This document shows, in pieces, positions 54,710-62,831 of a DNA stretch of 64,000 bases. The DNA lies in contig NZ_JAPWHB010000005.1 in assembly GCF_027214025.1 (NCBI RefSeq), positions 1 through 64,000 on the forward strand. The letters run 5' to 3'. The position numbers and the translations under genes are program-made. The number at the start of each line of letters is the position of its first letter. Positions within the stretch are counted from its first letter, which is position 1. This DNA comes from Parahoeflea alexandrii (GTDB lineage Bacteria; Pseudomonadota; Alphaproteobacteria; Rhizobiales; Rhizobiaceae). The notes beneath the pieces were generated by a model. It saw only the letters and a program-made list of their open reading frames with translations, was not told where the DNA came from and made no database searches.

Positions 54710-57700
54710 ATGAGCGATTCCACCGAAGACAGAAGACACCGCGGCCGCCGTGGATCGCTGCTCGACCATGCTCGCGACGCGCAGCCGGCCGCGCCTGAAC
54801 CCGTGATCGAACCCGTGACCGGGTTTCCGGAAGCCGGTGCCCGCACGGGCAGGGCGTCGTCGGCCTCGAATGCATCGCTTCTGACCACGCCCACCCGTTC
54901 GGCGCGCATTTCCACGTCGCGCTTTGCCGAGCCCGGCAATCAGGCTCCGGCCCGGTCGGCCCCGCCGCTGCTTGCATCCGCCGCCGCCAAACCGGCAGCG
55001 CCGCGCCCGGCAGCCGCGCGCCCGCAGCTTGCCGCGGTCAGCCAGCCATCGCCGGGACGCGAGAGATTCGGTGACAGGATCGCCCGCCTGATCGGCACGA
55101 TCGCACCGGAAGCCAGGCCTGCTGAACCCCGTGCGGTCGACGCGGGTCTTACCGCCGATGAACCGGCCCCGGTCCACCCCGTCGCGGAAGCGCAGCCGGG
55201 CCCCGGCCCGGAGAACCATTCCCGGGCGGCAGCCCGGCCGGAGCCTTCACCCGTTGACCCCGATCGTCCCCGGGATCGCCAGCGTGACGACCGGTACGAT
55301 GGCGACGATCACTACCACTGGCATGCCGCGTCCGGCGGGGGCCAGTTCGAGGACGGAACACGGCCGCTGCTCGATGCGTCGATCCTGATATCCGCGGTCT
55401 GGCGCTTCCGCAGGTTGATCGCTGCGGCAACCGTGGCCGGAGCCATGCTCGGCGTGCTGATGGCGCTGTCGACGCCGCACAGATATTATGCCGAAAGCCG
55501 GCTGTTTGTTGATCCGCGCGAAATCCGGGTCACCGAAGACGACATCCGCAACCAGCAGCTTTCCACCGAGGCCATGCTGGCGATCACTGACAGCCAGTTG
55601 CAGATCCTGTCGTCGACCAGCGTTCTGGAGAAGGTGATCGAGGATCTGGGTCTTGACCGCGATCCCGAGTTCAACGGATCGATGTCGTCGGGCGGCATCA
55701 GCGGCGGCCTGTCGCTGATCCGCGAACTGTTCACCGGCAAGAATGCAACGACCGAAGGCGAACAGAAGGCGCTCAACAATCTGCGCAAGGCGCTGTCGGT
55801 TGGCCGCGATGCGAAAACCTTCGTCATCATCGTCGGCGTCGACACGCGCGATCCGGAAAAGTCTGCGCTGATTGCCAATCAGATCGTCGAGACCTATCTC
55901 GATTCCGAAGGTCAGGCGCAATCCAGCCTGCTGGAGCGGACATCGGAATCCATCGACACCCGGATCAACTCGCTGCGTGCCGATCTTGACGCCGCCGAGC
56001 GCGAGGTCGAGCGCTTCAAGGCCGAGAACGGCCTGGTTGGCGTAGGTGGACAATATATCGATGACAAGGAAATCCTGGCGCTGAGCGATCAGCTCGCCAA
56101 TGCCCGGGCCATGAAGGTCGGCATCCGGGTCAAGGCCGACAACCTCGCCCGGGTGAAGATCGACGACGTCCTCTCCGGCGCCTTTCCCGAAGAGCTGCTG
56201 TCTGCCAATCTCAGCGAACTGCGCAAGCAATACGCCCAGACCAAATCCAACGCCGATTCGCTGGCCACTCGTCTCGGCCCCCGCCATCCGCAATACATCG
56301 CCGCCATGCAGTCGCTCGAAACCATCACCAACGAGATCAGCGCCGAGTTGCGCCGTATCGTCGCCAGCTCCCAGACCGAGCTGCAGCGCGCGGTGGAAAC
56401 CGAGCAGGAACTGGCAAGTCAGATGGCGGTGGCCAAGAGCCGCGCCATCGACCAGTCGGTCGAACTCGTCACCTTGCGCGAACTTGAGCGCAAGGCCAAC
56501 GCCACCCGTGGCATCTACGAGGCCTTTCTCACCCGCTCGCGCGAGACCAGCGAACGCTCCAACCTGTCGACGCGCAACGTCCGGGTCATTTCCCCGGCCG
56601 AGGCGCCGCTTCAGCCGATGGGTCCGTCGCGCAAGTTCATCGCCATCGGCGGCATGATCGCAGGCTTCCTCGCAGGCCTTGGCCTGGCGCTTCTCGCCGG
56701 TGCGATCGAAAGCATCCGCGCCTACAATGGCATGCAGGCCCAGGCCCGGTACCCGGGGTCGGCCTCCGGCGGCTACCCCCAGCCGCCTTCGCCTGGCCCG
56801 CAGACGCCTCCCGGTGGGCCTGGCCAGAGGTTCTGGCCATCCGGCAGCACCGAGATGCCCGGCCGTGACGCCGCTTTCGGCGCGGCCGCAGCACAGCCAT
56901 GGTCGGGGAAGCAACAGCCGGTCGCGGAGAACCCAGCGCAGAGCGAGCCTCTCGCGGGCAAGCCCGGCCTGCGTGAAACCTTCCACCTTGGCTTGCTGCG
57001 TCCGAAACCCATCCGCGAGCAGGCCCCGCGTTCAGGCGCCGCTGCCGCGCAAACCGCAGCTTTCAAACCCGAAGTGGAGCCTGTCGGCGATCATGACCCG
57101 CAGCGGACCTCCGCCACGGGCCGCAATGCACAGGCCTTCATGGCCGGTCATGGCCAGGTCCATGACGAGCCGCAACAGTTGGCGCCGGTCGGTTTCCCCG
57201 GAAATCCGGTTGGCGAGGAGTCGCAGGCCGCCCAGCCGTTCCCGCCGGCCCCCACGCCCCATCAGCACTCCTTGCCGCCCGCGCAGCCGGCCGGCCAGCC
57301 ACCGGTTCAGCAGCCTGTATATCCCTATCATCCCGCATATGCAGCCGATCCGCATGCCCAGGTCCATACCCAAGTCCATGCCCAGGCGCCCGTATACCCT
57401 GTCTACCAGCCGGCCTATCCCGTCGGTCCGGCAGTCCACCCCTATCCGGCGCCACCGCAGATGATGCCGGGCCTGCCGCCTCAGACCTATCCTCTGCCGC
57501 CCCACGCTTATCAACCGCAGCCGCAGATGCCTCAGCACCCGTATCCGGCGGCCTACCAGACGCCGCCACTCTATCCGGTTCAGCAGCCGCTTGCGCCGGC
57601 GCAGGCCTGGCAGCAGCAGGTCACGCCTCCCTTGCCGCAGCCCGCGCCGCCGGCCCCTGCAATGCCGGTCGTCCAGCCCCAGGCCCAGGCCCAAACTCAT

Positions 57701-57844
57701 GCACACCCGCAGCAGCCGGCCGGGCCGGCCCCCGCACCTGTCCCGGTAGCCCGCGACAACGCGGCTGCCGAGCGCATCCGCCGCGAGATGGACGACCTCC
57801 GCTCCCGGATCGACAGCTACGGTGCGGACCGCCGCCGCGCCTGA
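54710..57844 (+). CDS. Wzz/ExoP-like polysaccharide co-polymerase without kinase domain
   Basis: A 1044-residue inner-membrane protein of the GumC/ExoP type that sets chain length of exported polysaccharide. Residues 1-225 are disordered, Pro/Ala/Arg-rich. A first membrane segment lies near 233-252, followed by the Wzz domain ([19 protein letters not shown]) and long periplasmic coiled coils. The conserved PxxP-like stretch [18 protein letters not shown] leads into the second membrane segment at about 642-665. The remaining 380 residues are Pro/Gln/His-rich, with no Walker motifs, so the usual tyrosine kinase half is missing. Confidence 0.88.
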
Positions 57845-58884: not shown

Positions 58885-59471
58885 GGGGGAGTGGGGAGAA
58901 GGGGGGAGAGGGGCAGTACGCTGCTCTCCGGCCAGTATTCGCTACGCGCCCCCATTCCTGTCCTTGGTGATTTCCGATTTGCGGCTTTAAAACGGTCGTT
59001 GTCAACGATGACGAGAACGGACCGCAACTACGGACATTCTGTCCGCATGCATGCTGTCCTTTGACTTTGCAGTCCGATTGATTTTGTCGACCCTATCTGA
59101 CGCAATTTGGCGCTACCCACCAAGTGTTCATTGGGCTATACCCAGCTGACACGATCCCATGCCCCGACCTATGTCAGCCGTTCCTATGGAGAAGGTGTAC
59201 TGATGGCATCGTATTGTCTGCTGCGGGTGAAACGTATGCCCCTTCTGGTAGACCCCATGGGGGCGACGGCTGCGCCAAGGGACTTAGATGCCCCCGCGCA
59301 AAAAATTTCTAATTCTGAAGTGCCGCCCTTTTAGCTTGTCAATGCACCGCAGTACATTGCGCGCGAGCAAAGCTGTTGAGGACCCATTTAAGTTGTGATC
59401 CTTTCGTGTCTGCTTCATTGACGGACGGTGTGATTTCTGATGCCTTTGAGCTTCGCACACAGGGGCAGCAA
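58885..59471. other. 587-bp spacer before the NACHT-type gene
   Basis: The left end is a G-rich tract directly after the folD stop. GC content then falls toward the level of the next gene. No tRNA, integrase, insertion sequence or clear promoter was recognised. A 43-codon frame (59203-59334) with a GGAGAAGG sequence before its ATG exists, but nothing else supports it as a gene. Confidence 0.5.
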
Positions 59472-62400
59472 ATGAAAATCGATACTTCAGCAAAAGGCCG
59501 TAAACCTGCATGGACTACGGCTGCGGCAGATTTGGCAAAGGCCGCCGCCGCCGCTGTCCCGGTACTAATCACAGGGCAGCCCGGCGCTTCGATGGTAGCA
59601 ATGGGCGCAGCCATGCCTGCTATCATTGATGCTGCCCTGGCTCTGTCGAGCCACAGCAAGCCTTCGTTGGGTTCTAGCGCTTGGTCAATGGTAAAAGCCG
59701 CCTACGCGGCAGGTATTGTGCGGTTCATATCGACCGCTCCATTGGACCGGCGACCAACGGGCGTGGAGCTTCAGTCCCTTGTCGAGACACTAGTTATCCG
59801 GCTTGAACTTCTGCTTGAGGAGAATACTCAGGAGTTGTCACCTGAGGTGTTTTTGTCCCCTTTGAGACTTCCTGCTTTCCGCAGGATGGCCAGAGACATC
59901 ACACATGAGATGAGGCTCTATACACTAGACAATCCCATTGCCAATGGGCGGAAGCTGTTCGAAGAGTGTTTGATCGAAGGGTTCCTGGATTGCAGGAATG
60001 CCCGTCCGGACGAATTTGCAAAGGTCGAGCAGAGTTTCCGAGGGGCATTTGCAGACGGCTACGACAAGTACAGATCGCTAACGCGTCACTACAATTTCCT
60101 TCTTAACTCCTTCAGTCTGAAGCCAGTTTTTGGGCAAGAAGACGAAGGGATAACGTTGTCAGATCTCTACGTTCGCCAGAGAGCACTTTGGGTTTCGAGG
60201 GAAAGGCATGAGGGGCATGTCCAAGAGGACGATGGACCGGCTGAGCTTGTAGGAAGCGACTTTTTTCGGGAGAGCGATAAGGATCCGCACAAATGGCGCT
60301 ATTTGTTCCACGTTGACGACTTGCATGCTACCATATGGACGTGGTTACGGGAGCGCGACTGCAGTGAAGCAATTAGAGTTATTGCGGGTGGTCCCGGTTC
60401 AGGAAAATCCACTCTGGCGCGTGCGTTAGCTATCGAAGCCATTGATAGCGAGGAATTTGATGTTTTGTTCGTTCCCTTACAAGAAATCGAAGCTGTAGGA
60501 TCGTTTCCGGTCCGCGTGGAAAATCTCTTGAGGTCACGGACCGATCTTGGTTTAGATCGACATCCAGACGCGCTTAATTGGCTGGGCCAAAGCGAGACCA
60601 CGGGGTCTTCTCCGGTGCGTCCCCTGCTGCTCATCTGCGATGGTCTTGATGAAATCGCTCCGCCAGGGTCCGCCGAAGCGGCGACAGTTACCGCCGATTT
60701 TGTGCAAGCACTTAGTTCCTGGGTCTACGCGCGGAACTCCGGTGGGTTCCATGTCTGTGCGCTAGTGTTGGGTCGAACTATCTCTGCCCAAGAGGCTTTC
60801 CATAAATTGGGCATCGGACATCACGCACTCGTTCGGGTAGCCGGTTTCCTTCCAGTAACGGGCACGGATGAATGGGAGAAGGCGAAACGCCACAGTTGCA
60901 CTGTCGATCTTGCGCAGCTTGCAGAGAAGGACCAGCGGCAAGAATACTGGCTCAATTGGTGTTCAGCAAAGGCAATAGCGGACCAATCGCTGCCCGTCGC
61001 TTTAGAGGCAAACAACGCGCCCGGACGGGCGCTTCAAGAACTTACCGCCGAACCGCTGCTTCTGTATCTTCTAATTTGGACAGGCTACCTAGGCCAGCAG
61101 TGGGAAAAAGCGGCAAGTAATCGCAATCACGTCTACGAGGAAATCTTCAAGCAGATCTATCAAAGGAAGTGGGGATTATCCGCACCACGAGTGACGGGTA
61201 ACAAGCAGCGGGGTGGCCACCCAGCCACTGATGATGTTTCAGAGGATGATTTTTTCCTCTTGCAAGAGGCATTAGGCTTAGCGTCTTGGGGTACCGGCGG
61301 GCGCACGGTGAACGTGGCCGCGTTTGATGCCATGCTTAAGGTTTATCTCAATGAAGACAAATATGAAGATATTTCAGATAGCGTAGCAAGTTCCCTCAAA
61401 TCAGTTGCGCTCCAGGGGTACACGCGCAGTGTGGGGGGAGATGCTGCTGGCTATGAGTTTGTTCACAAAACCATCGGCGAGTATCTTATCGCTAGGGGAC
61501 TCGCCACCACATTGACAACGGCTTTGGACGAAGTACGGGAGCGCTCCTCTCCCGGCAGGTGTGCAAAAGCTGCAGCTAAACTTGCAGCAATCATGCGATA
61601 TGGAGTTCTGAAGCCGGAAATAGCTAGGTTTTTTGTTGACGAGCTACGAATGCGCCTCCGCAGCGCTAAAATTGCACGCCGCGAACTGGAATGGCATTTT
61701 TTGCCGGTTATGAATTGGCTTTTACAAAACGGGTTTAGCTTCTCGCCTGAACCAGGTGGTCAAACTGAAATGGTTTATGCAAGAGCAGACCAGTCAGACC
61801 AGCGTATCTGGGACGTAGTCTGGTCTGCGTTTCAAGCAATAGCGCACATTTCGTATCCCTGGCGGACGATGGGCATAAATCATGATGAAGCCTGGGAAGT
61901 CGGCCCTGTTCGCCTGGATTGGCCAAATCCTCAGTCCTTCATATCACTCTTCGCGCGCCTGTCTTCTAGAAGTCACGTCGCAGAAACAGGTAGGATACCT
62001 ACATTTGATTACTTGGATATTCGCGGGCAGGCGGTAACCGATTACACTTTCGGCAGCGTGATCTTCAATGAAAGCAGCAATGAAGGGTCTTTTCGACCTC
62101 TGATATGGCTACCGATTTCAATGCGCGCCTGTAGATTAGATGGCCTTTTTTTTTACGGAGCTAATTTGCGGGAAGCTCACTTGAATCTTTCTAGTTTGGT
62201 GGAGACCGTATTTTCTGGGGCTAGATTAGATCGCGCTATTTTGCAGAAAGCTAACTGCAGGTCGGCAGTATTTGTAGACGCGTCTCTAAATTTTGTTGAT
62301 GCGCATGAGGCGAATTTTACTGGAGCAAATCTTAGCGGGACGAAATTTAAATCCGCGCAGCTGCAGGAAACGGATCTTTCTGAAGCAAAGTTCGATCCAC

Positions 62401-62747
62401 GAGTGCGAGAAGGAGGCCTTACCATATTTGCCAACGCGTCACTAGAACGCGCGAAAGTGCAAAATACGGATTTGGGACAGTCCATCCTATTTCGGTGCAA
62501 AGTCGATGGTGCCGACTTCACTGGCGCAGATCTAACGAAATGCCACATAGTAGATACAGATTTCAGAAAAACTATACTCGAGGAAAATCAGAGTGAACTG
62601 AAGAAGAATTCCGCTAGAAAATCCAAGGGTGGTCCGAATAGAACGCAAACCATTCTCGTTATGGATGATGAAGAGATAGCAGCGGAGAAATTAGCATTCA
62701 ATGGGCGCGCCCCCTTACCTCGAGGGAAGTCAAAGAAGAAGAGCTAA
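59472..62747 (+). CDS. NACHT-type STAND NTPase with C-terminal pentapeptide repeats; candidate defence protein
   Basis: A 1091-residue signal-transducing NTPase. Residues 17-58 are Ala-rich and hydrophobic; 59-290 are helical and unrecognised. The NTPase core has Walker A GGPGSGKST (306-314) and the NACHT-style Walker B LLLICDGLDEIAP with D390, D393 and E394. Helical regions follow (LTAEPLLLYLLI; YEFVHKTIGEYLIARGLA, typical after NACHT cores). About 886-1036 are pentapeptide repeats (ANLREAHLNL, GARLDRAILQKAN, ANFTGANLSGTKF). The tail is lysine-rich. Bacterial NACHT proteins include anti-phage immune sensors; that role here is inference. The ATG at 59472 has AGGGG upstream; a TTG at 59376 would add 32 residues. 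Sampled GC is about 45-53%, against about 72% in folD, suggesting transfer. Confidence 0.85.
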   Translation: MKIDTSAKGRKPAWTTAAADLAKAAAAAVPVLITGQPGASMVAMGAAMPAIIDAALALSSHSKPSLGSSAWSMVKAAYAAGIVRFISTAPLDRRPTGVELQSLVETLVIRLELLLEENTQELSPEVFLSPLRLPAFRRMARDITHEMRLYTLDNPIANGRKLFEECLIEGFLDCRNARPDEFAKVEQSFRGAFADGYDKYRSLTRHYNFLLNSFSLKPVFGQEDEGITLSDLYVRQRALWVSRERHEGHVQEDDGPAELVGSDFFRESDKDPHKWRYLFHVDDLHATIWTWLRERDCSEAIRVIAGGPGSGKSTLARALAIEAIDSEEFDVLFVPLQEIEAVGSFPVRVENLLRSRTDLGLDRHPDALNWLGQSETTGSSPVRPLLLICDGLDEIAPPGSAEAATVTADFVQALSSWVYARNSGGFHVCALVLGRTISAQEAFHKLGIGHHALVRVAGFLPVTGTDEWEKAKRHSCTVDLAQLAEKDQRQEYWLNWCSAKAIADQSLPVALEANNAPGRALQELTAEPLLLYLLIWTGYLGQQWEKAASNRNHVYEEIFKQIYQRKWGLSAPRVTGNKQRGGHPATDDVSEDDFFLLQEALGLASWGTGGRTVNVAAFDAMLKVYLNEDKYEDISDSVASSLKSVALQGYTRSVGGDAAGYEFVHKTIGEYLIARGLATTLTTALDEVRERSSPGRCAKAAAKLAAIMRYGVLKPEIARFFVDELRMRLRSAKIARRELEWHFLPVMNWLLQNGFSFSPEPGGQTEMVYARADQSDQRIWDVVWSAFQAIAHISYPWRTMGINHDEAWEVGPVRLDWPNPQSFISLFARLSSRSHVAETGRIPTFDYLDIRGQAVTDYTFGSVIFNESSNEGSFRPLIWLPISMRACRLDGLFFYGANLREAHLNLSSLVETVFSGARLDRAILQKANCRSAVFVDASLNFVDAHEANFTGANLSGTKFKSAQLQETDLSEAKFDPRVREGGLTIFANASLERAKVQNTDLGQSILFRCKVDGADFTGADLTKCHIVDTDFRKTILEENQSELKKNSARKSKGGPNRTQTILVMDDEEIAAEKLAFNGRAPLPRGKSKKKS

Positions 62748-62831
62748 TATTCAACTAATCTTCCGGGCAGATGCCTTGCTCGCTAATAGATAAGCTGTCT
62801 CGCTGGGGCTTGCCGGAGTTGATCTTCCCCC

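Follow-up and report, generated by a model that had tools for sequence, protein, structure and literature searches.

A NACHT-type NTPase with C-terminal pentapeptide repeats at a variable site beside folD in Parahoeflea alexandrii: a candidate single-gene anti-phage system

The window analyzed here, i.e., the whole stretch of 64,000 nucleotides of Parahoeflea alexandrii DNA, harbors a gene for a NACHT-pentapeptide protein (Table 1) between two genes that we take to be folD and pfp; these names, like that of the LacI-type regulator mentioned below, were read off the sequence by the initial annotation and by ourselves. The reading frame is uninterrupted from the ATG at position 59472. A longer open frame, starting with TTG, extends upstream to position 59376, but in an alignment the ATG coincides with the start in the closest listed relative. 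Gene tables were obtained with simple open-frame scripts, so that errors are possible where genes are small or overlap. Upstream of folD (54710-57844), a 1044-aa protein is encoded, which is presumably chain-length-determinant-like and has a very long C-terminal part rich in proline and glutamine.

Table 1. Positions of the features discussed in the text (window coordinates, or coordinates within the named locus).
Feature	Position	Strand	Basis
Stretch from folD to pfp that lacks homology to relatives	58886..62826 (approximate edges; left edge up to 58905)		blastn, low GC
NACHT-pentapeptide protein, 1091 aa	59472..62747	+	open frame, motifs, Pfam, family scan
N-terminal domain, residues 1-283	59472..60320	+	remote homology to the N-terminus of the other clade (hhalign)
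NACHT Pfam match, residues 303-401	60378..60674	+	Pfam
Walker A GGPGSGKST, from residue 306	60387..60413	+	sequence and family alignment
Walker B DGLDE, from residue 390	60639..60653	+	sequence and family alignment
FVHKTIGEYLIA motif (family form FxHKSFGEYLxA)	61458..61493	+	25-row alignment; weak NLRC4 profile match
Pentapeptide-repeat region, residues ~887-1034, proposed sensor	62130..62573	+	Pfam, sequence
Basic tail, poorly conserved, residues 1041-1091	62592..62744	+	13 K+R vs 6 D+E
~160-aa cyanobacterial protein	L037:8582-9061, L041:8309-8788, L042:7980-8450, L043:8299-8769		neighbour tables

The protein carries both motifs of a NACHT/STAND NTPase, a Walker A and a DGLDE-type Walker B, just as the initial annotation had described. 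The Pfam search that had been proposed as a check gives 78.9 bits (1.9e-22) for Pentapeptide, above the cut-off of 20.2 bits and over a C-terminal stretch of the claimed length of about 150 residues, while the NACHT match (4.4e-5, 23.8 bits) lies slightly under the curated 26.7 bits. Ahead of residue 285, Pfam returns nothing except a stray Sigma54 match (E 0.13), i.e., no recognized effector. PADLOC gives no strong match to the protein (best 0.0028, confined to the Walker region), and no strong membrane segment was seen (top 19-residue hydropathy 1.73). In the FxHKSFGEYLxA motif, the residues F663, H665, K666, E670, Y671, and L672 are invariant across the 25 alignment rows. A profile search of solved structures pairs this motif with KFFHKSFQEYTAGRR of NLRC4, a weak and non-significant match (E 0.035) above which an unrelated chain (0.026) is ranked. 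The gene resembles what forms the core of NLR immune receptors in animals.

With 19 K+R and 21 D+E over the 165 residues 876-1040, the repeats show no strong acidity, and on this charge balance DNA mimicry, which had been raised as a property of such repeats, was rejected for the window protein, although the repeats of some relatives are more acidic (net down to -16 in L038). The wider idea that the repeats form a DNA mimic or a gyrase-binding module, with the NACHT part as its regulator, could draw on their weak similarity to Qnr and MfpA models, but these matches fall far under the curated cut-offs and, together with the charge, leave this idea with very little probability.

In 1-kb windows, the gene has a GC content of 0.49-0.54, against 0.61-0.69 in most of the windows that flank it, in line with the earlier remark that it lies below both neighbors. 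On the folD side, homology to 14 folD-downstream loci of relatives (blastn) stops between a point before the folD stop codon and 20 bases past it, and on the pfp side, homology to the relatives' pfp loci starts at the earliest 5 bases ahead of the pfp frame. Since homology breaks off near the folD stop and the pfp start, the gene appears alone on a segment of ~3.9 kb, where it is the only gene seen, in agreement with the earlier description as solitary. We infer from these comparisons and from the low GC content that the segment was laterally acquired. The two flanks of the segment have no direct or inverted repeat in common that is exact over at least 10 bases. A search of these flanks for remnants of a prophage, by tblastx and blastn against 25 loci, gave nothing better than E 0.065 apart from the window itself, and a scan for promoters and terminators gave no clear excess over shuffled sequences.

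The folD gene was found in all 18 genomes of the genus, and the sites of relatives were read as the initial annotation had suggested: none of the 13 sites read, from a total of 17 relatives, holds a homologue of the NACHT part. Two of these loci (G014 and G017) lead from folD to the LacI-type gene with no gene between, two others (G002 and G010) have a gene in common, which Pfam identifies as flagellin in G010, and the remaining nine contain mostly unshared genes according to the open-frame script. The 3' side of folD (L093-L105) is a variable cargo site in the genus. Of ten cargo proteins scanned from eight loci, a single one, a KAP NTPase in G003, matches PADLOC strongly (PDC-S20, 2.2e-76); several other cargo genes are metabolic or transport genes, and the site is therefore not defense-specific. 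The folD site of G006 encodes a 679-aa protein with a GC content of 0.52 and a weak AAA_16 match.

Homologues of the NACHT part were detected in two of 61 genomes, namely the host's own and that of its genus-mate G015, which has three divergent copies. Counted with the own genome, matches occur in 2 of 18 genomes of the genus and 4 of 385 of the class (one of them a short partial match), and the family profile matches 7 of 299 genomes of the phylum at 1e-20. No paralogue was found in the own genome (best other match E 0.076 over 34 residues), and searches of phage and plasmid collections yielded no match at 1e-5 (tblastn, residues 1-860). The gene is accessory and patchily distributed. About 2 kb from one of the G015 NACHT genes, an open frame at the contig end (L022:9121-9666, minus strand) encodes a long near-perfect pentapeptide run.

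Beyond the genus, a search with residues 1-861 (A1), begun from the three G015 copies, retrieved at least 16 loci from species genomes and at least 10 viral contigs, of which eight show no difference in the stretch compared and were counted as one locus; three further viral contigs, found by motif, lie outside this identity comparison. The family is larger than the members listed, and the matches listed include an archaeon and cyanobacteria. The initial annotation had considered the combination of NACHT and pentapeptide repeats unusual; the gene is accessory and single, but the combination belongs to a widespread family and is not a one-off. When 25 members were scanned, Pentapeptide matched 25 and NACHT 24 at E ≤ 0.01, and NNH3 matched 15. 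Since 21 of the 25 were retrieved with queries that omit the repeats of the window protein (the remaining four are the three copies of G015 and the window gene itself), the linkage of NACHT-type and pentapeptide parts is no search artifact. Repeats are visible by eye in the later members L112, L127, L128, L129, and L130 as well, albeit short in some; L131, a 525-aa open frame that stops ahead of any repeat region, and L032, a short partial match, were not included in the family alignment. A dedicated NNH3 family search gave no match in 190 genomes of the class nor in 14 controls and is thus uninformative, and the A7 viral scan confirmed none of the 600 stretches listed, though A1 had found L049.

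The order of N-terminal domain, NACHT, helical region, and pentapeptide repeats is the same in all complete members examined. In the N-terminal part, where the initial annotation had placed the effector of known bacterial NACHT proteins, Pfam recognizes no enzymatic effector in the window protein; 15 of the 25 members match the helical domain NNH3 (PF22735; best match 1.6e-52); the window protein has no NNH3 match (Pfam, E ≤ 1) and is tied to such NACHT proteins through its family alone. An hhalign comparison of the N-termini of two clades (99.3%, E 3.4e-20, 240 columns) shows the alphaproteobacterial clade to be remotely related in this domain to the other clade, which is taken to be the NNH3-bearing one. 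The NACHT part is more conserved than repeats plus tail in eight of eight compared pairs, and the N-terminal domain is more conserved than the repeats in only four of eight. With L033, the closest listed relative (49%), identity amounts to 63% in the NACHT-WHD part, the best conserved one, 41% in the N-terminus, and 30% in repeats plus tail. L033 is also the partner of the window protein in the tree (100/100), and the G015 copies, three in number, branch elsewhere. The genome of L033 is from the Rhizobiaceae and may be fairly close to the host, whose folD is nearest, among plasmid records, to Sinorhizobium and Rhizobium, which points to Hyphomicrobiales; the pairing therefore need not mean transfer between distant hosts.

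Several relatives reside in phage-like surroundings, where members from viral collections are viral partly by selection. The labels 'Mu-like' and 'P2-like' are our own, given after the usual gene sets of such phages, PHROGs naming single genes only, and on this assumption the phage DNA around L033 would be Mu-like: it contains a transposase (phrog_310, 1e-156), a ParB-like gene, a CI-like repressor ~80 bases upstream of the NACHT gene, and head genes on the side opposite the repressor. In L049 as well, a transposase (phrog_310, 1.5e-161) is present upstream and a CI-like repressor directly precedes the NACHT gene, and in L112 a CI-like repressor lies ~430 bases away. In L048, a repressor-like gene is followed by a type IV restriction enzyme (PADLOC, 1.4e-67) and the adjoining NACHT gene. 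An integrase is found near the member in L046 and near that of its sister in the tree, L058, and a transposase in L106. In L057, the order is an origin-nicking replication gene (phrog_91, 8.7e-155), a repressor, a 455-aa gene, the NACHT gene, an adjoining PDC-S36 gene (4.6e-45), another gene, and an integrase. This arrangement resembles the published defense hotspot between cI and integrase in P2-related phages of Vibrionaceae (PMC9122126). The repressor-like genes that lie beside the member in L033, L049, L048, and L112 would also suit a prophage gene that serves the phage's own lysogeny or the exclusion of phages of the same type and was kept in the window by chance. We regard this as improbable, as there are archaeal and cyanobacterial members around which no phage gene was seen by eye, and as the window copy is an intact frame of 1091 codons in flanks where no phage remnant was found.

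The search for homologues near defense genes, which had been proposed as well, thus turned up members inside prophages and others next to a type IV restriction enzyme or an Argonaute, and the gene is neither core in all relatives nor its family always remote from defense genes, the pattern that had been set against a defense role. In L046, a class II Argonaute (6.3e-224) and its partner lie nearby, and farther on in the phage-rich L033 contig there is an AriA-like gene (L033:17232-19561, 4.4e-26) whose AriB-like partner is weakly matched; this PARIS-like pair may belong to a second element that is degraded. A clear phage or defense neighbor is present in only three of the 16 listed chromosomal loci (L033, L046, and L048), and none was seen in the other 13 by PADLOC and by eye, in an uneven search that had no control loci. 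The genes for phage and defense neighbor identification were chosen by eye. When 148 of 172 neighbors from 15 loci were submitted to PADLOC at 1e-15, the Argonaute pair was the sole convincing match; further matches were PD-T4-2_B (three members), PDC-S07, MzaA, and DrmD. Matches such as those to mad3, DndA, SspA, pVip, C3a186, and 2OG were taken as housekeeping look-alikes.

Many chromosomal members are solitary among genes that resemble housekeeping genes by eye, and some cyanobacterial copies have common neighbors, which suggests vertical retention. Both observations would fit a STAND signaling or regulated-death protein that responds to host stress instead of phage, but the patchy distribution and the presence of several members in prophages count against this function, which we hold to be rather unlikely. 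In four of six cyanobacterial loci, with two different wider contexts, a conserved protein of ~160 aa is encoded upstream of the NACHT gene (Table 1).

With a probability of roughly 0.6, we favor the interpretation that the window gene encodes a single-gene STAND/NACHT anti-phage switch of the bNACHT type, with the pentapeptide repeats as sensor, which was spread partly by prophages. By analogy to bNACHT (PMC12169576) and Avs proteins (PMC12724215), the repeats might detect a phage component or a phage-caused change, and detection might lead to ATP-dependent oligomerization; the output, growth arrest or death, could then come from the helical N-terminal domain, either directly or via a host partner. 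Prophages that carry the gene would protect their lysogen against other phages, and the window copy would be cargo at a chromosomal position of variable content. More tentatively, and with the odds somewhat against it, the family might be a widespread undescribed NLR-like defense clade with a fixed pentapeptide-solenoid sensor, located beside repressors in unrelated prophages where it protects lysogens, while stranded copies such as the window gene provide host immunity. If the gene does serve in defense, the pentapeptide would be a type of repeat that the literature searched did not show in the sensor role of any bacterial NLR tested against phage, a family across several bacterial phyla and an archaeon would raise the question of how a repetitive solenoid recognizes phage, and the prophage-borne members would offer testable cases.

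The consulted parts of the literature (including PMC7159879, PMC8195603, PMC12169576, PMC10853773, PMC13092281, PMC12724215, PMC2853523, and PMC9122126) yielded no phage-tested NACHT-pentapeptide protein, though one may well have been published elsewhere. Known systems that are most alike are bNACHT clades 6 (bNACHT25/32) and 14 (bNACHT02/11/12), which like the window protein are single proteins with a central NACHT and a C-terminus taken as sensor, and in clade 14 an N-terminal effector is likewise not discernible (PMC12169576). By description, they are set apart through the domains NCH1 or SNaCT, and clade 6 also through a nuclease as effector (PMC12169576), whereas the window protein has pentapeptide repeats and no recognized effector. 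The STAND genes in hotspots of P4-like satellites also combine a STAND NTPase with C-terminal repeats on a mobile element, but the repeats named there are TPRs, and the effectors are TIR, SIR2, or nuclease domains (PMC9122126). Cyanobacterial conflict systems with VMAP and TRADD-N include pentapeptide repeats and STAND/NACHT NTPases among their domains, but are defined by other constant domains and often comprise several components (PMC7159879; PMC8195603).
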